Translations under genes and position numbers: made by a program
Assembly: GCA_947448135.1 (NCBI GenBank)
Contig: CANFLZ010000005.1
Span: 1 to 64,000, forward strand
Source: Flavobacteriales bacterium
GTDB lineage: Bacteria; Bacteroidota; Bacteroidia; Flavobacteriales_D; Sanyastnellaceae
Length of the DNA stretch: 64,000 nucleotides
Direction of reading: 5' to 3'
Shown: positions 25,715-58,543 of the stretch, one piece after another
How positions within the stretch are numbered: position 1 is the first letter of the stretch
How the letters are laid out: each line of letters starts with the position of its first letter
Notes under the pieces: model-generated
Told to the model about the DNA's origin: nothing
Databases searched by the model: none
Seen by the model: the letters and a program-made list of their open reading frames with translations, nothing else

Positions 25715-26140
25715 ATGAAAAAATTATTTGCTTCACTTTTTGTAATGTTTGTGTTGGCCGCAGGTGCCAATGCGCAATGTAGAGCTTTCACGAAAAACCG
25801 AGTTTTGCCCAACCTTACTGGATTTATTCAAAATGAAAATTACAACGCCGCACTTTTTATGGAAGGTGATGAGGCCGAGTTGTTGATGACGTTCTACGGT
25901 GGCAAAGACTATCGTTTGGTAGTAATGGCTCACCCTGTTTTACCAGAAGTTGAATTTGAGGTTTTGGATACCAATGATGAGTTGTTGTATTCTAATAAAA
26001 CAGCAGCCAACAAAAACACATTTGATTTTAGAATGACAAGCACGCAACAATTAAAAGTTCGTGTGAAAGTTCCAGATTCAAAAGGAACGATGGTGAGACA
26101 AGGTTGTGTCACGGTAGTGGCAGGCCACAAGCAATCTTAG
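25715..26140 (+). CDS. Small secreted protein of unknown function
   Basis: 141 residues with a clear signal peptide (MKKLFASLFVMFVLAAGANA, then Q). The mature part of about 120 residues has alternating beta-strand pattern (AELLMTFYGGKDYRLVVMAHP, QLKVRVKVP) and two Cys (near residues 22 and 131) that could form a disulfide closing a compact beta-sandwich. No family recognised. It is 11 bases downstream of the lipoprotein gene and followed by a terminator, so it ends that unit. Confidence 0.7.
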   Translation: MKKLFASLFVMFVLAAGANAQCRAFTKNRVLPNLTGFIQNENYNAALFMEGDEAELLMTFYGGKDYRLVVMAHPVLPEVEFEVLDTNDELLYSNKTAANKNTFDFRMTSTQQLKVRVKVPDSKGTMVRQGCVTVVAGHKQS

Positions 26141-26157: not shown

Positions 26158-26182
26158 AGAGGGGCTTAGGCCCCTCTTTTTT
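26158..26182. terminator. Bidirectional terminator between the secreted-protein gene and birA
   Basis: agagggg (26158-26164) pairs with cccctct (26171-26177), with an extra C-G pair closing a 4-base loop; a T-run follows. It serves the plus-strand unit and sits at the 3' end of the converging birA. Confidence 0.8.
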
Positions 26183-26942
26183 ATATCCAGCTGATTTCTC
26201 CAGATTGGAAAAGTCGGTTCTCACCATTGACAGCAAGGACTAAGCGACCTGCTCCATCTACTCTCACAACCATTCCATTTATTTCTTCGTGGTTGACCAA
26301 GAATTTCCGACTTTCATTTTTACCCAAAAGAAACTGATGGTAGTTTTGATCAATCTCAAGTAACAAGCCATTTTTCCATTGCTCGAATCTTAAATGAATA
26401 CATTGGTTTAATTCCAAGATTGCTTGATCAATTGACAATGTCATTTCATTATTTTGCAACAATACAGAAGTTGCATTGGAAGGCAAATTACTTTCTTGTA
26501 AAATATTGATTCCAATTCCGGCGATCAGTGTTGCGGATTTGTTGGGATGCCATTGTATCTCGATCAATATCCCTGCAATTTTTTGGCCTTCAACATAGAT
26601 GTCATTCGGCCATTTGATGCATACTTCTCCTTTTGAAATCCAATCGCTGATCGCATCGTGCATGGCCAAGGCAAGCGCCTTGTTAAGGATGATTACATCC
26701 TCGAATTGAGGAGCGCTTAAGTGCAAAATCCAAGAGGCGGTCAAGTTTTTCCCGGCTTCGGATTTCCAGGTATTAGAGCGTTGACCTCTGCCATTGGTTT
26801 GCAACAATGCCGAAATGACAGTTCCATGGGCAACATCCTCTGTCAACAGCAGTTTGGCGGCATAGTTGTTTGTTGAATCTACCTCGGACAGTGAAATACG
26901 GTTAATTTCCATTGAATCACGAAGATAATCGGGTTTTTTCAT
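26181..26942 (-). CDS. birA: Biotin--[acetyl-CoA-carboxylase] ligase
   Basis: Attaches biotin to carrier proteins through biotinyl-AMP. Family signatures are visible: LSEVDSTNNYAA near the start, NGRGQRSNTW for biotinyl-AMP binding and KWPNDIYVEGQKIAGILIE with the catalytic Lys. No N-terminal helix-turn-helix is present, so it is a catalytic-only ligase and not the E. coli-type repressor. ATG codons at 26966, 26942 and 26912 are all in frame. 26942 (253 residues) is a compromise; 26912 gives the most family-like N-terminus. Confidence 0.93.
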   Translation of the reverse strand: MKKPDYLRDSMEINRISLSEVDSTNNYAAKLLLTEDVAHGTVISALLQTNGRGQRSNTWKSEAGKNLTASWILHLSAPQFEDVIILNKALALAMHDAISDWISKGEVCIKWPNDIYVEGQKIAGILIEIQWHPNKSATLIAGIGINILQESNLPSNATSVLLQNNEMTLSIDQAILELNQCIHLRFEQWKNGLLLEIDQNYHQFLLGKNESRKFLVNHEEINGMVVRVDGAGRLVLAVNGENRLFQSGEISWI

Positions 26943-26955
26943 CGTTCCTAAGTTG

Positions 26956-26963
26956 TACATTTG
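26956..26963 (+). promoter_or_regulatory. Predicted promoter (-7 box) of rsfS-ftsH-cdsA-psd
   Basis: TACATTTG fits TAnnTTTG and ends 15 bases before the rsfS ATG. No convincing -33 TTG. It lies between divergent birA and rsfS. Confidence 0.5.
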
Positions 26964-26978
26964 CACTAATTATTGAAA

Positions 26979-51627: not shown

Positions 51628-52307
51628 GACGATATTTTTTTATAGTAAGACAATGACAAAATCAAGTAAAGGCCCATAACCCCCAGGATGCCAAGGAAAA
51701 AAGAGTCCATGACAAAATAGGTAGCGCCTAAAATAATAAATGACGAAATCAGTAAAATCCAAATAATTTCTTGTCCTTTCCAACCCAGACCTTTGAATTT
51801 AAGGCTGAGCAATGGAGTGGTGGAGATCATAAGGAGGGTTGTGACGATTGATGCACCAATTATAAGTAGTGGATTGAATGCACTGAATGAATCCATTTGG
51901 TACCCGAAAATCCCCATCCAAATCATCGCATTAGAAGGAACAGGTAATCCTTTGAAGTGACCACTTGTGTTGATTGGATCTAAATTAAACCGCGCCAACC
52001 GATACGCCGCTCCAGCGGCAATCATGAAAGGAATATATTGAATCCAACTGTTATGCGGTAGCATGGCGTGGGCCCAAAGACTGGGAACAACGCCAAACGA
52101 AACAACATCGGCTAAGGAATCCAATTGACCTCCCAATGGAGATGAGACTTTCAGTAATCGCGCTGCAAATCCATCAAAAAAATCTAGAATAGCCGCGGCA
52201 ATAACGCAATAAATACTGGCGATAGGATTGTTATTCACCAAGAGAATAGCGCAGCAACCCAAAACGAGGTTGCCCAATGTTATTCCGTTGGGTATCCAAG
52301 CAATCAT
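51624..52307 (-). CDS. pssA: CDP-diacylglycerol--serine O-phosphatidyltransferase
   Basis: Makes phosphatidylserine, the substrate of psd at 30206-30862. 227 residues, about seven hydrophobic helices. The CDP-alcohol phosphatidyltransferase signature is complete: DGFAARLLKVSSPLGGQLD followed by SLAD (DGxxAR-x8-GxxxDxxxD). It overlaps infB by one base (TAATG) and purS by four. Type II pssA, as in Bacillus and Bacteroidota, not the E. coli phospholipase-D-like form. Confidence 0.95.
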   Translation of the reverse strand: MIAWIPNGITLGNLVLGCCAILLVNNNPIASIYCVIAAAILDFFDGFAARLLKVSSPLGGQLDSLADVVSFGVVPSLWAHAMLPHNSWIQYIPFMIAAGAAYRLARFNLDPINTSGHFKGLPVPSNAMIWMGIFGYQMDSFSAFNPLLIIGASIVTTLLMISTTPLLSLKFKGLGWKGQEIIWILLISSFIILGATYFVMDSFFLGILGVMGLYLILSLSYYKKISS

Positions 52308-55105
52308 TAAAGTGTCTGTTTAACTTCTACTTCTTCAAATGCTTCAACAATATCTCCGGTGCGGATGTCATTGAATTTATCAATATTTAAACCACACTCA
52401 TAACCTTTCGTTACATCCTTCACATCATCTTTGAAACGCTTCAATGAACCTAGATTTCCAGTATACATGACGATGCCATCGCGAATGATTCGAACCTTGT
52501 TGTTTCGGTTGATTTTTCCATCTTGAACGAAACATCCAGCGATAGTTCCCACTTTGGAAATTTTGAATGTGTCGCGGATCTCTGCTGTACCCACCACCTT
52601 CTCTTCAATTTTAGTGGACAACATTCCTTCCATGGCTTCTTTGATTTCTTCGATAGCCTTGTAGATGATGCTGTATTGGCGAATTTGAATTTCTTCTGCT
52701 TCCGCCAATCTTCTTGCACTGGTACTTGGACGAACCTGGAATCCAACAATGATAGCATCTGAAGCCGAAGCCAACAATACATCACTTTCAGAAATTTGTC
52801 CAACTCCCTTGTGTACAATGCTCACTTGAACTTTGTCTGTAGACAATTTTTGCAAGCTATCTACCAAAGCTTCTACAGATCCATCCACGTCACCTTTAAC
52901 AATCAAATTCAATTCTTTAAAGTCTCCTAGAGCGATACGACGACCAATTTCTTCGATGGTCAAGTGCTTTTTCGTTCTTACACTTTGTTCACGTTGTAAT
53001 TGTTGACGTTTTGTAGCGATTTCGCGTGCTTCTCGTTCATCTTCGAATACGTAGAATTTATCTCCAGCATTGGGTGCTCCCTCAAATCCTAAGATCGATA
53101 CAGGAGTTGCAGGACCCGCTTCTTCTATTTTTTGTCCGCGTTCGTTGAACATCGCACGAACACGACCGCTCCATTGACCGGCAAGAATAGGATCTCCAAT
53201 TCTCATGGTTCCTGAAGATACCAAACATGTGGTAACATATCCACGTCCTTTATCCAAGGAAGCTTCGATAATTGTACCGTTGGCACGCTTGTTTGGATTG
53301 GCTTTTAAGTCTAACATCTCTGCTTCTAAAACAACTTTTTCTAAAAGCTTATCGATGTTCAATCCTTGTTTGGCAGCGATTTCTTGGGATTGGAATTTAC
53401 CACCCCATTCTTCTACCAAAATATTCATAGCAGACAACTGCTCGCGGATACGATCCGGATTGGCGTCTGGTTTATCCATTTTATTGTAAGCAAAAATCAT
53501 GGGCACTCCTGCTGCTTGAGCATGCGAAATGGCTTCTTTCGTTTGCGGCATAACGTTGTCGTCAGCAGCAATCACGATAATCGCCAAATCTGTTACTTGA
53601 GCACCACGAGCACGCATGGCTGTAAAGGCCTCGTGACCCGGAGTATCAATGAAAGTAATTTGCTTTCCTGTAGGAAGTTTTACACTGTACGCACCCATGT
53701 GCTGAGTGATTCCTCCCGCTTCACCAGCCAATACGTTGGCTTTGCGAATAAAGTCAAGCAATGAAGTTTTACCATGGTCAACGTGACCCATTACGGTTAC
53801 AACCGGTGGGCGTGTCACCATTGAATCTTCATTATCTGCTTCTTCAAAAGTTGTCTCGGATACTTCTGCGCTAACGAATTGAATTTCGAAACCAAATTCC
53901 TCTGCAATAATCTGGATGGTTTCAGCATCCAAGCGTTGGTTGATAGAAGCAAAAATTCCCAACTGCATACATGCAGCGATAATCTCTGTTGGTTGACGAT
54001 TCATCATTGTTGCCAACTCAGAAACCGTAACGAATTCCGTTAACTTTAAAATTGCATTTTCTTCAGCTTCGCGAATACGTTTTTCTTCAAACTTTCTGGC
54101 TTGTTGATCACGCTTATCACGTCTGTTCTTAGAAGCCTTTGACTTTCCTTGTCCACCAAGGCGCGCCAAAGTTTCTTTGATTTTATTCTGAATATCTTGC
54201 TCGCTCAATTCAGCTTTTGGCGCTGCGGGATTAGGTTGTCCGGGTCTATTTGGACCACCACGATGCTGATTTCGTTTGTCAATTTCTTGTTGACGATTGA
54301 TGTCAACTTTCGCAACACGTTTGCGTTTGCGTTTTTCTTTGTTGTCATCGGCCTTCTGCTCAGGTTTCTTCTTTTCTTGCTCTACTGGTAGAACAATTTT
54401 ACCCATCACTTTTGGACCAGCCAATCGCTCAACATTGACACGAATCAATTCTTTTTCTTCTGGAACCACTACTACAGGAGCAGCAGCTTCCACCGGAGCT
54501 ACCGGAACCTCTTCTGCAACCGGAGTAGCGGCGGCTGGTGCCGGCGCTGCGGGTTCAGCAGGTTTTGCTTCCGCTTTTTTGGCTTTTGGAGCGGGTTCTG
54601 GGGCTACTTCTTTTTTCTTTTTGCCTCGACCACTTTGAATGGTAGAAAGATCGATTTTACCAACGATTTTCACTTCGTTTGGCGCATCAGATTTCTCCTC
54701 AACCGCGGGAATTTCTGCAGATGCTTCTGACTCGGTGTTGTTTTCAATTACAACATCATCCAAAACACTTTTGGAAGTTTCAGGTCTTTTGCGCTTGAAT
54801 TGTGACAAATCGATTTCCTGAGTCTCTTCCTCTGTACCGTCTGCTTTTTTCTTTGAATCCTGAATGGTTACAGTTTCTCTCGATTCTTTGTACTTGGTAG
54901 CAACGGCCTTGGTTTTTTCCTTGGCTTGTTGGTCACCAGCAAACTCAGCAAGAAGGATATCGTACACTTCGCCTTCGATTTTAGCCATAGGGTTGTTTTC
55001 AATAGTAACCCCTTTTTTGGATAAAAATTCGACGATGGTATCCTTACTCACATTCAATTGAGTAGCGGCTTTTCCTAGACGTTGCGGTCCCTTTGTTTCT
55101 GACAT
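52307..55105 (-). CDS. infB: Translation initiation factor IF-2
   Basis: GTPase that places initiator tRNA on the ribosome. 932 residues. N-terminal IF2_N-like segment ([24 protein letters not shown]), then a long Ala/Pro/Glu/Lys-rich linker (about 60-330), then the G domain with [16 protein letters not shown] and NKMDK, and domains II to IV to the C-terminus. Translation is probably coupled to pssA (one-base overlap). It lies 61 bases downstream of nusA in the conserved rimP-nusA-infB order. Confidence 0.98.
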
Positions 55106-55166: not shown

Positions 55167-56402
55167 TTATTCAAACTCAGAGCGCAAAATTTGTAATACC
55201 TCGTCGATGGTTTCTTCTTCCAAATCGGTACGACGAACCAATTCTTCTTTTGACAAGTCAAGCACTGCACGAGCGGTATCGCATCCTACAGCTTTCAACT
55301 CATCGATGATCCAGCTGTCGATTTCGTCTGAGAATTCTTCCAAATCCACATCATCCAAATCAGTTTCTGTCTCACGGTATACATCGATTTCAAATCCGCA
55401 CAAACGACCCGCTAAACGGATGTTGTGTCCACCTTTACCAATGGCCAATGATACTTGATCAGGTTTCAAGAAAACATCTGCTTTTTTGTTCTCTTTATCC
55501 AATGTAATGGAGCTCACTTTGGCTGGCGCCAAAGCTCTTGAAATCAACAATTGCTCATTAGTAGTGTATTGAATAACGTCAATATTTTCATTGCGCAATT
55601 CACGAACGATACCATGAATACGAGAACCTTTCATTCCGACACAAGCACCTACTGGATCGATACGATCATCATAACTTTCAACAGCTACTTTAGCGCGCTC
55701 TCCTGGTTCACGAACGATATTTTTAATGGTGATCAAACCATCAAAAACCTCTGGAACTTCTTGTTCAAATAATTTCTCTAAGAATTCTGGAGCTGTACGA
55801 GATAAAATGATTTGAGGAGTATTACCCTTCATTTCAACTTTAGAAACTACTGCACGTAAAGTGTCTCCTTTTTTATAGAAATCCGCAGGAATTTGTTGCT
55901 CCTTTGGTAAAATCAATTCGTTGTTCTCATCGTCCAACACCAAGATTTCTTTTTTCCAAACTTGATAAACCTCACCGGAAATAATTTCTCCAACACGCTC
56001 ACGGTATTTTTGATAGATGTGGTCTTTCTCCATCTCAATAATGCGAGACGTCAAATTTTGACGCATCGCCAATACATTGCGACGTCCGAAATCTTCGATT
56101 CGAATTTCTTCGATTAGTTCTTCACCCACCTCTAAGTCAGGCACTACTTGGCGAGCCATGCTCACCTCGATTTGCGCTACTTCATCATCTAACTCACCAT
56201 CTTGAACAACTTCACGGGTTCTCCAAATTTCCAAGTCACCGCGTTCTGCGTTGATGATGATATCAAAACCATCTTCAGCACCCCATCTTTTTAAGATCAT
56301 GTTGCGGAAAACATCGGCTAAAATGTTAGTGACCGTTTCGCGGTCGATATTCTTGAATTCCTTGAATTCACTGAAAGATTCTAAAAGGTTTACGCCTTTC
56401 AT
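55167..56402 (-). CDS. nusA: Transcription termination/antitermination factor NusA
   Basis: Binds RNA polymerase and RNA hairpins, tuning pausing and termination. 411 residues: N-terminal polymerase-binding domain, S1 domain (near 130-200), KH1 and KH2 with GMKGSRIHGI and GKGGHNIRLAGRLCGF, then a short C-terminal helical region (RTDLEEETIDEVLQIL). It is 12 bases after rimP. An attenuator-like leader ahead of rimP may be its own regulatory target. Confidence 0.97.
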   Translation of the reverse strand: MKGVNLLESFSEFKEFKNIDRETVTNILADVFRNMILKRWGAEDGFDIIINAERGDLEIWRTREVVQDGELDDEVAQIEVSMARQVVPDLEVGEELIEEIRIEDFGRRNVLAMRQNLTSRIIEMEKDHIYQKYRERVGEIISGEVYQVWKKEILVLDDENNELILPKEQQIPADFYKKGDTLRAVVSKVEMKGNTPQIILSRTAPEFLEKLFEQEVPEVFDGLITIKNIVREPGERAKVAVESYDDRIDPVGACVGMKGSRIHGIVRELRNENIDVIQYTTNEQLLISRALAPAKVSSITLDKENKKADVFLKPDQVSLAIGKGGHNIRLAGRLCGFEIDVYRETETDLDDVDLEEFSDEIDSWIIDELKAVGCDTARAVLDLSKEELVRRTDLEEETIDEVLQILRSEFE

Positions 56403-56414
56403 AGGACTTAATTT

Positions 56415-56882
56415 TTATTTGAAGCTAATCGTTATTTTGGTTTCTTTGATCTGATCGTAGCTGAGTTGCACTTGCTTCTCAACCCACTGTTTGGTTTTTT
56501 TACCGGGTACCAACTCTTTTTCCCGAAAATCCACTTGTATAAATTCTGCGTTGGCCAATGTCATGGTGCCTTCTATTTTGGCTCCGTCTATTGTTTTAAC
56601 CGCCACGTTTCTGCCGATATTTTTAAAATATTGTCGCTGCACCAATAAGGGTTTGCCTACTCCTGGCGAAGAAACTTCTAATGAAAAATCTTCCACTTCA
56701 CGGTCCAATGAACCTTCAACGGCACGACTTACTTTCTTGCAATCATCGATTGTCAATCCGCTATCTCTATCCACCAAAACTTCAATGGCATTGCCTGGAT
56801 TTACTTGAATATCGACAACAAATAAATCGGAATCCACTAGAAGGGGAGCGATAAATGCGGCTACTGTGTCTTTTGTAATCAT
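56415..56882 (-). CDS. rimP: Ribosome maturation factor RimP
   Basis: Needed for 30S subunit assembly. 155 residues from the ATG at 56882: N-terminal alpha/beta domain (LFVVDIQVNPGNAIEVLVDRDSGLTIDDCKKVSRAVEGSLDREVEDFSLEVSSPG) and a C-terminal SH3-like barrel. The ATG at 56915 would read through the leader hairpin and adds residues with no family match, so the shorter start is chosen. First gene of the operon that runs to hemL. Confidence 0.94.
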   Translation of the reverse strand: MITKDTVAAFIAPLLVDSDLFVVDIQVNPGNAIEVLVDRDSGLTIDDCKKVSRAVEGSLDREVEDFSLEVSSPGVGKPLLVQRQYFKNIGRNVAVKTIDGAKIEGTMTLANAEFIQVDFREKELVPGKKTKQWVEKQVQLSYDQIKETKITISFK

Positions 56883-56898
56883 ATGGTATTCTGCAAAA

Positions 56899-56932
56899 GA
56901 AAGAGGGGCTTCCACCCCTCTATTACTCTCTC
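56899..56932 (-). promoter_or_regulatory. Attenuator-like leader of the rimP-nusA-infB operon
   Basis: On the minus strand, agagggg (56921-56915) and cccctct (56908-56902) form a 7-bp hairpin with a 6-base loop, followed by TTTCTTTT, an intrinsic-terminator shape. It lies between the promoter at 56943 and the rimP ATG. An alternative pairing, gagagag (56932-56926) with ctctttc (56905-56899), allows seven pairs including one G-U and excludes the terminator. The geometry is seen; regulation by NusA is inferred. Confidence 0.5.
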
Positions 56933-56942
56933 AAATGCTTGG

Positions 56943-56973
56943 CAAAGATAGACTAAGTATTTGTATTGTCAAA
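56943..56973 (-). promoter_or_regulatory. Predicted promoter of the rimP-hemL operon
   Basis: On the minus strand: TTTG at 56973-56970, 19 bases, TATCTTTG at 56950-56943, a full consensus match. Leaves a leader of about 55 bases containing the attenuator-like hairpin. Confidence 0.75.
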
Positions 56974-57003
56974 AGAAAAATATATTTCTGGGTAGTGGTT
57001 GCT

Positions 57004-57011
57004 TATTTTTG
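57004..57011 (+). promoter_or_regulatory. Predicted promoter (-7 box) of the MopE-like gene
   Basis: TATTTTTG ends five bases before the ATG at 57017, predicting a leaderless mRNA. No clear -33 box. Confidence 0.5.
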
Positions 57012-57016
57012 TTGGT

Positions 57017-57949
57017 ATGAGAGGAAGAATAATTACCATCATCTTTTGTTGTTTGTGCTACGTCATGAATAGCCAAACCTGCACCTTTTATTTGGATTCA
57101 GATATGGATGGCTTTGGTGATGACAATAATTTCACGGTTGGTCCATGTAACACGCCACCTCCAGGCACTACGACAATTGGAGGAGATTGCGATGATACCA
57201 ACGCAGCTGTCAATCCCAGTGCTGTTGAAATTTGCAATTACATTGATGACAATTGCAACGGTGGTGAAATAGATGAATTTGTGCAATTGAATTTTTATCA
57301 GGATTTGGATTTGGATGGATTTGGAGATGCCAATGTTTTGATATTGGAATGTGCAGAGCAGCCGGGCTACGTGGCCAACATGGATGATTGTGATGATAAT
57401 TTGGTGACCTATCTGGATGCAGATGCGGATGGATGGGGTTCTACTACATTAGACCCATGCGGTGTTGGGAATAATTTGGATTGCAATGATTTGACGAATA
57501 GTGTGCAAGAGTCCACTTTGTATTTTGAAGATGCAGATGGCGATGGTTACGGTAATCCGGACATGTCCATTTATTTATGTGAGTCCCAAAATGGATTTAT
57601 TCCAGACGGAACGGATTGTGATGATGCGGATGCAACGATTTATCCAAATGCCTCCGATATTCCAGGAAATGGAATTGACGAGAATTGTGATGGTGCTGAT
57701 GGGGTAGGCGTTTCGGAATGGTCTTCAGAAAGAATTGAAATATGGCCAAATCCTGCGCAGCGCATTATTCATGTTGAGATTCCACAATCAGGAAATTTGG
57801 TCGTGACAAATTTGCAAGGGCAATGGGTCATGGAGTCAAAGTTGTTTGCGGGTGTTAACCCAATCGAATTGGAACTGCCTTCTGGAATTTATTGGATGAT
57901 TGTCAAAATGACAAATGATCAAATAGCCAAAAAAGTAATTGTAGAGTAA
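57017..57949 (+). CDS. Secreted MopE-like putative metal-binding-motif protein with T9SS sorting domain
   Basis: 310 residues, with a signal peptide ending NSQ. Four Asp-rich loops of the type DxDxDGxG (DSDMDGFGD, DLDLDGFGD, DADADGWGS, DADGDGYGN) alternate with Cys-containing motifs GGDCDDTN and GTDCDDAD, followed by YIDDNCNG and GIDENCDG. This is the MopE/thrombospondin-type-3-like pattern expected to bind calcium and perhaps copper. A C-terminal sorting domain begins IWPNPAQR. The ATG at 57017 gives the shorter, better signal peptide. It converges with gldD with no gap between the stop codons. Confidence 0.87.
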   Translation: MRGRIITIIFCCLCYVMNSQTCTFYLDSDMDGFGDDNNFTVGPCNTPPPGTTTIGGDCDDTNAAVNPSAVEICNYIDDNCNGGEIDEFVQLNFYQDLDLDGFGDANVLILECAEQPGYVANMDDCDDNLVTYLDADADGWGSTTLDPCGVGNNLDCNDLTNSVQESTLYFEDADGDGYGNPDMSIYLCESQNGFIPDGTDCDDADATIYPNASDIPGNGIDENCDGADGVGVSEWSSERIEIWPNPAQRIIHVEIPQSGNLVVTNLQGQWVMESKLFAGVNPIELELPSGIYWMIVKMTNDQIAKKVIVE

Positions 57950-58543
57950 TTAACGCCAAGTTATTTTGTCAGTCAAATACTGAAGGTCTCTTTCTATGTA
58001 TTGAAATACAGGTGCAATAGAATCAGGATTGGGTGCTGTTTCAAAATACAACGCACAACGTAAAAATCGCGAGGTACTATCGGTCAGAAAAATTTGAAGC
58101 GGCGATGCCGCGTCCCCTTCGATTCTGTAGCGAATACCAAATACTTTTCTAGAAGGATCTTCAATTAAAGTTCGGTCAATTGCACTGGCTTTCATTTCGT
58201 GTTTTGAAGCAAAAGTGTAGGCGTCAGCGACCAATTGATCGATGTTGTTTCGAACGGCTAAAAAAGTACAATGAACGCGCGCTTTGAGACGAGGATAAAA
58301 AATATTGAATCGGCAGGAATCCGCTTTTTGAACCTTGTCTAATAATTCGACTTTTGCAAAAGCAGAAACGGGTAAATTAAAAGGTGCGAGCGGAGAAAAA
58401 TCTCGATATTCATGTTTGGGTAAATCAATTCTAAAGTATCCTTTTGGTCTTGGAAAAACAGCCTCTGGCTCGCGCAATAAAAACCAATACGTTCCGATAG
58501 AACCGATCAAAATAATGAGGGTGAAAATAAAGAACTTCTTCAT
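57950..58543 (-). CDS. gldD: Gliding motility protein GldD
   Basis: 197 residues, a periplasmic component needed for gliding and T9SS function in Flavobacterium. The core starts PRPKGYFRIDLPKHEYRDF and continues through CRFNIFYPRLKARVHCTF, LVADAYTFASKHEMKASA and RSFGIRYRIEGDAASPLQIFLTDS-like sequence to the C-terminal FQYIERDLQYLTDKI. Most relatives I recall are lipoproteins; here the N-terminus (MKKFFIFTLIILIGSIGTYWFLL) has no lipobox Cys and reads as an uncleaved anchor. It overlaps gldE by four bases. Confidence 0.9.
   Translation of the reverse strand: MKKFFIFTLIILIGSIGTYWFLLREPEAVFPRPKGYFRIDLPKHEYRDFSPLAPFNLPVSAFAKVELLDKVQKADSCRFNIFYPRLKARVHCTFLAVRNNIDQLVADAYTFASKHEMKASAIDRTLIEDPSRKVFGIRYRIEGDAASPLQIFLTDSTSRFLRCALYFETAPNPDSIAPVFQYIERDLQYLTDKITWR

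Follow-up and report, generated by a model that had tools for sequence, protein, structure and literature searches.

A general rimP-leader has been described as a bare terminator without a visible antiterminator, with NusA as the likely effector (Naville and Gautheret 2010, PMC2965389). Its hairpin has a G-rich 5′ arm and a C-rich 3′ arm (GGGc...gCCC), is followed by a T stretch and lies 4–130 nt ahead of the gene start. Among the terminators of 302 genomes, the GGGc...gCCC signature was reported to be specific to rimP (PMC2965389). In Bacillus subtilis, NusA autoregulates its own production by stimulating termination in the nusA leader (Mondal et al. 2016, as covered in the review PMC12288461). 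RNA-seq of the genes gbs0413-0418 of Streptococcus agalactiae located termination 31 nt past the rimP start, and NusA feedback was proposed (PMC4448216). Flavobacterium psychrophilum is reported to transcribe a structured element 5′ of rimP that also occurs in other Flavobacteriaceae genera (PMC9723704).

The element analysed here is the 5′ UTR of rimP, the first gene of rimP-nusA-infB, in a stretch of 64,000 nt from a Flavobacteriales bacterium (contig CANFLZ010000005.1, positions 1 to 64,000; hereafter the window). We identify it as the rimP-leader of Naville and Gautheret (2010) in its Bacteroidota version, a phylum-wide addition to an already known type. With the general rimP-leader it shares the position ahead of rimP-nusA-infB, the short hairpin with a G-rich 5′ and a C-rich 3′ arm, the U stretch and the lack of an antiterminator or larger element. 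The distance from the stem end to the rimP ATG is 19 nt in the window, which is inside the range of 4–130 nt. Stem and tail in the window (AGAGGGGUGGAAGCCCCUCU-UUCUUUU) have the hairpin and T-stretch feature of the rimP-leader, whereas the base beside GGGG is a U paired to G instead of the c of the GGGc...gCCC signature. The first-pass annotation had expected a different RNA in a distant phylum; this expectation did not hold, since the general kind had already been described for many bacteria (PMC2965389). The main text of that study names Firmicutes and Gammaproteobacteria, but not Bacteroidota.

The B. subtilis nusA leader is likewise a terminator ahead of the nusA operon, and NusA-stimulated termination there leads to negative autoregulation. 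Its length of about 180 nt compares to about 56 nt in the window, and its regulation is experimentally supported, whereas ours is deduced from sequence. The S. agalactiae leader also has its terminator very near the start and a proposed NusA feedback, but belongs to a Firmicute and has another promoter. The F. psychrophilum element agrees with ours in phylum, gene and the occurrence of a 5′ element without an Rfam hit; its structure and mechanism are absent from the main text of PMC9723704.

When the window leader was compared with the Rfam families, including the Gammaproteobacterial rimP leader (RF01770), no match at the gathering cut-off was found. RF01770 itself was not detected in the window leader even with the threshold relaxed to E ≤ 10, and searches of 16 relatives at E ≤ 1 were likewise negative. 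Weak matches such as ctRNA_p42d (20 bits, cut-off 50) were judged to be chance. RF01770 shares the rimP gene with our element and includes the rimP terminator, but is a form with tandem terminators and a clear antiterminator (PMC2965389).

Locus layout and promoter

The locus is oriented on the minus strand in the order promoter, hairpin with U tract and rimP-nusA-infB. Pfam domains confirmed rimP and nusA as the first downstream genes: rimP (ribosome maturation factor, 56415–56882, with the ATG at 56882; RimP_N, 1.4e-14) is followed by nusA (55167–56402; NusA_N, 1.3e-24, and NusA-like KH, 1e-26) and then by infB, encoding IF-2 (52307–55105; IF-2, 6e-42), all on the minus strand. An in-frame GTG at position 56915, within the hairpin, would add 11 residues to rimP (56415–56915); the ATG at 56882 is the better match to relatives. 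A search for a leader peptide found no ATG in the leader 5′ of the hairpin, and the GTG in the hairpin merely extends rimP.

A promoter on the minus strand ahead of the leader had been annotated and was confirmed; it is of the Bacteroidota type, TTGACA-16-TATCTTTG. The upstream element (TTTG / TTGACA) is located at 56967–56973, with TTGACA itself at 56972–56967, 16 nt ahead of the −7 box TATCTTTG (56943–56950). TAnnTTTG is the flavobacterial sigma-A box and was mapped to −12 to −5 in F. psychrophilum (PMC9723704). Because TATCTTTG fits this Bacteroidota consensus, the transcription start is predicted at about 56938; the predicted start and the hairpin are separated by about 17–20 nt.

The stem resembles ordinary terminators of the lineage, as would be seen if it were the 3′ terminator of an upstream gene that stands ahead of rimP by chance. 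However, the neighbour upstream of the leader (57002–57949) runs in the opposite direction, so the hairpin is not the end of that gene, and in 87 of 89 genomes a promoter box stands between the hairpin and whatever lies upstream. We regard this explanation as having practically no probability. The divergent gene 57002–57949 codes for MopE-like metal-binding repeats and a secretion-system C-terminal sorting domain, and a gldD-like gene (57950–58543) adjoins it.

Terminator hairpin and its conservation in Bacteroidota

Sequence, fold and covariation support the terminator hairpin AGAGGGGU-GGAA-GCCCCUCU (56902–56921, minus strand). Its stem consists of 8 bp, namely seven A-U or G-C pairs and a closing U·G pair, with a GGAA loop. 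The following U tract UUCUUUUG (56894–56901, minus strand) is interrupted in the window (UUUCUUUUG) and is the predicted release point of an RNA of about 45–50 nt; hairpin and U tract together span 56921–56895. A 7-bp GC-rich hairpin with a U-rich tail had been noted at this site; hairpin and tail proved real, while the stem is one pair longer. The terminator of the window leader was calculated at −14.3 kcal/mol. The fold of the leader has a z-score of −3.4, with an equally good fold in 1 of 200 shuffles.

Searches for rimP recovered the gene from 58 of 60 relatives and, over the phylum, from 155 of 158 genomes; nusA lies directly downstream of it in all 58 loci checked. The DNA upstream of rimP was analysed at 124 loci, 93 from Bacteroidia and 31 from other classes of the phylum. 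A strict gapless scan detected hairpin and U tract in 109 of these regions (89 of 93 Bacteroidia and 20 from other classes), compared to 60 of 620 shuffled ones. Four Bacteroidia loci have imperfect stems only; once such stems are allowed, hairpin and U tract are found ahead of rimP in 93 of 93 Bacteroidia. In the other classes, the hairpin is present ahead of rimP in nearly all of the 31 loci, and those missed by the strict scan likewise have imperfect stems, with one exception. This locus is doubtful, with a fold that was found unconvincing, though inspection by eye suggests a hairpin TGGGCGATAGTGCCCTTTTTTT.

The combination of promoter and subsequent hairpin is characteristic of the rimP leader in Bacteroidia. 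It was found at rimP in 87 of 93 Bacteroidia genomes with the strict scan, but only at 1 of 30 control ssb genes of related genomes; among the 57 ORFs of at least 120 aa in the window, the single case is rimP itself. Of the 89 strict Bacteroidia leaders, 87 have an exact TAnnTTTG box no more than 75 nt before the hairpin, compared to 4.6% in shuffles, and the predicted start of the leaders with this box is 5–28 nt from the stem. Outside Bacteroidia, the box was found in just 2 of 20 strict cases, and no start is therefore predicted there.

Covariation was measured with 28 leaders aligned without gaps; this alignment took the place of MAFFT alignments that were misaligned through loop length or inverted stems. 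Standard pairing was observed in 97.3% of pair cells compared to 84.7% in shuffles, a percentage that leans towards structure as the alignment was picked for equal spacing. Changes on both sides occur at seven of the eight stem pairs. The number of cells changed on both sides (34, compared to 8.3 in shuffles) and the covariation score (0.553, compared to 0.275) were each reached in 0 of 500 shuffles, and none of the slid versions of the stem approaches this covariation. The covariation of the terminator stem that had been looked for in relatives was thus found and is strong.

The most common stem, GAGGGG/CCCCUC, occurs in 59 of 89 Bacteroidia, and GGG/CCC arms occur in 82 of 89. Quite different stems occupy the equivalent place outside Bacteroidia (GUGGGG/CCCCAC, GUCCCGC/GCGGGAC and UAGCCCG/CGGGCUA). 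Conservation does not extend to the loop sequences. T was found at 78–91% in tail positions 1–5 over 89 Bacteroidia leaders. The rimP leader hairpin is not a product of chance. A terminator in the rimP leader is strongly supported, and the promoter-proximal terminator annotated ahead of the NusA-encoding operon turned out to be conserved and covarying.

The position in the 5′ UTR, in some genomes as close as 1 nt to the start codon, would also fit an element of mRNA stability or translation instead of a terminator. The spacing of promoter and hairpin, however, is tight, while the start codon lies anywhere from 1 to 112 nt past the hairpin, a variability that argues against a role in translation. 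In addition, the U tract is conserved, and a like stem with U tract follows the end of genes elsewhere in the window (26159–26179). A stability or translation element is thus very improbable.

The latter hairpin, GAGGGGCUUAGGCCCCUCUUUUUU, has a stem almost identical to that of the rimP leader and is followed by a U tract. It sits between the stops of the convergent genes 25715–26140 (plus strand) and 26181–26966 (minus strand) and is an ordinary bidirectional 3′ terminator. The G-5′/C-3′ stem style of the Bacteroidota leader is common to ordinary 3′ terminators of the lineage, which sets this leader apart from the general rimP-leader: the own genome contains 25 matches versus 6 of inverse polarity, with strand-paired matches counted twice, the 6 corresponding to three sites on both strands. 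These stems are strongly polar (GGGG 5′ arm, CCCC 3′ arm), and the inverse occurs 0 times in six congeners. Matches to GAGGGG/CCCCTC that are preceded by TTTG are mostly at rimP, but without the promoter part the stem is also present at other sites, e.g. 26159–26179, and exclusivity of the stem to rimP was rejected. The rimP-only signature fails in this lineage, which limits its use here and not the membership of the element in the rimP-leader type. Since ordinary terminators share the rimP stem, the sequence does not point to a dedicated NusA site.

Antiterminator and sensor

The first-pass annotation had proposed a competing pairing of GAGAGAG (56926–56932, minus strand) with CUCUUUC (56905–56899) as antiterminator. 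This is the arrangement of a classic two-state attenuator, switched by a ligand or protein. The seven pairs exist as letters, and the window leader taken alone pairs better in this way than 97% of its shuffles (p = 0.03). The helix is nevertheless 8.4 kcal/mol weaker than the terminator (−5.9 kcal/mol alone), and the upper terminator hairpin would still be able to form beside it. The best fold has the GA-rich stretch GAGAGAG paired to the U tract instead, as an extension of the terminator stem; the terminator also forms first during synthesis.

Comparison of related leaders gave no support for the antiterminator either. Within the genus (6 genomes), the outer pair is broken in four and a middle pair in three; covariation of the pairing among the six matched that of shuffles, and some slid versions exceeded it. 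When the 5′ segment was tested for pairing to the 3′ arm and U tract, p ≤ 0.05 was reached in 5 of 86 Bacteroidia leaders (median p = 0.54), as expected by chance. Breakage within the genus, energies and chance-level pairing in the 86 leaders argue against a conserved, mutually exclusive antiterminator. The two-state attenuator is largely refuted, and we consider it highly unlikely.

A conserved sensor hairpin upstream of the terminator was not found in the 86 leaders (p ≤ 0.05 in 4). The 5′ segment ahead of the hairpin measures 8–28 nt in these leaders and, judged by its size, would therefore be too short for an aptamer, a T-box or a leader peptide. At seven loci, an A/U-rich inverted repeat, e.g. 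AUUAUUUA...UAAAUAAU, abuts the rimP terminator stem on its 5′ side. It is weak (p = 0.02–0.11 compared to shuffles), confined to one genus of a single family and possibly due to common descent only.

Proposed control by NusA

A covarying terminator, the lack of an antiterminator and the lack of room for a sensor make factor-controlled termination the simplest mechanism, with NusA as the first candidate. Read from the sequence, the promoter, the covarying hairpin, the U tract, the order of these parts, the absence of a conserved antiterminator or sensor and the position of nusA directly downstream point to a bare intrinsic terminator of the rimP-leader type that probably controls rimP-nusA-infB through NusA feedback. 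We assign this reading a probability of roughly 70%. By analogy with B. subtilis, NusA would be the effector of leader termination; stopping and readthrough of RNA polymerase at the leader, and their dependence on NusA, are predicted for Bacteroidota.

RNA polymerase would stop at the U tract of the leader in a fraction of rounds and release an RNA of the predicted size. NusA bound to the polymerase would stabilise hairpin and pause and thereby raise the terminated fraction. With scarce NusA, more polymerases would read through and the operon would be made, whereas plentiful NusA would favour termination and lower the operon. NusA would thereby be under negative feedback, together with RimP and IF-2, and the switch would be the elongation complex instead of an alternative RNA fold. 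Of the autoregulation previously suggested for this leader, the promoter-proximal terminator with NusA feedback stands as the natural reading, while the refolding antiterminator was dropped.

A bare leader terminator could also respond to a factor other than NusA, such as NusG, RimP, IF-2, the general elongation rate or temperature. These candidates all act on or come from the rimP operon or the elongation complex; RimP was named as possible by Naville and Gautheret (PMC2965389), and cold shock raises expression of the infB operon in Escherichia coli (PMC6511841). Autoregulation by leader termination, however, is reported for NusA in B. subtilis and proposed in S. agalactiae, and no protein-binding motif was seen in the leader beyond the terminator. 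We consider control by another factor unlikely.

The finding extends a known and widespread attenuator to Bacteroidota, where the leader shows phylum-wide conservation and covariation, and the evidence argues against RNA refolding as the switch. The result mostly confirms what the work of 2010 and 2016 would predict. NusA feedback can now be tested directly in tractable Bacteroidota of gut and marine origin, and the rimP leader is a natural candidate for NusA-activity reporters in this phylum. Quite tentatively, a sensor-less terminator at most about 50 nt from the start may govern rimP-nusA-infB across the whole phylum and perhaps in much of bacteria, with the elongation complex reading the occupancy of NusA (or NusG) at the first terminator; the effector in Bacteroidota may differ from the Firmicute case.

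Three loci of the phylum outside Bacteroidia feature two tandem terminator-like hairpins upstream of rimP. In two of them, the first hairpin is of the G-5′/C-3′ and the second of the C-5′/G-3′ type, whose order is reversed in the tandem rimP leader of Gammaproteobacteria.
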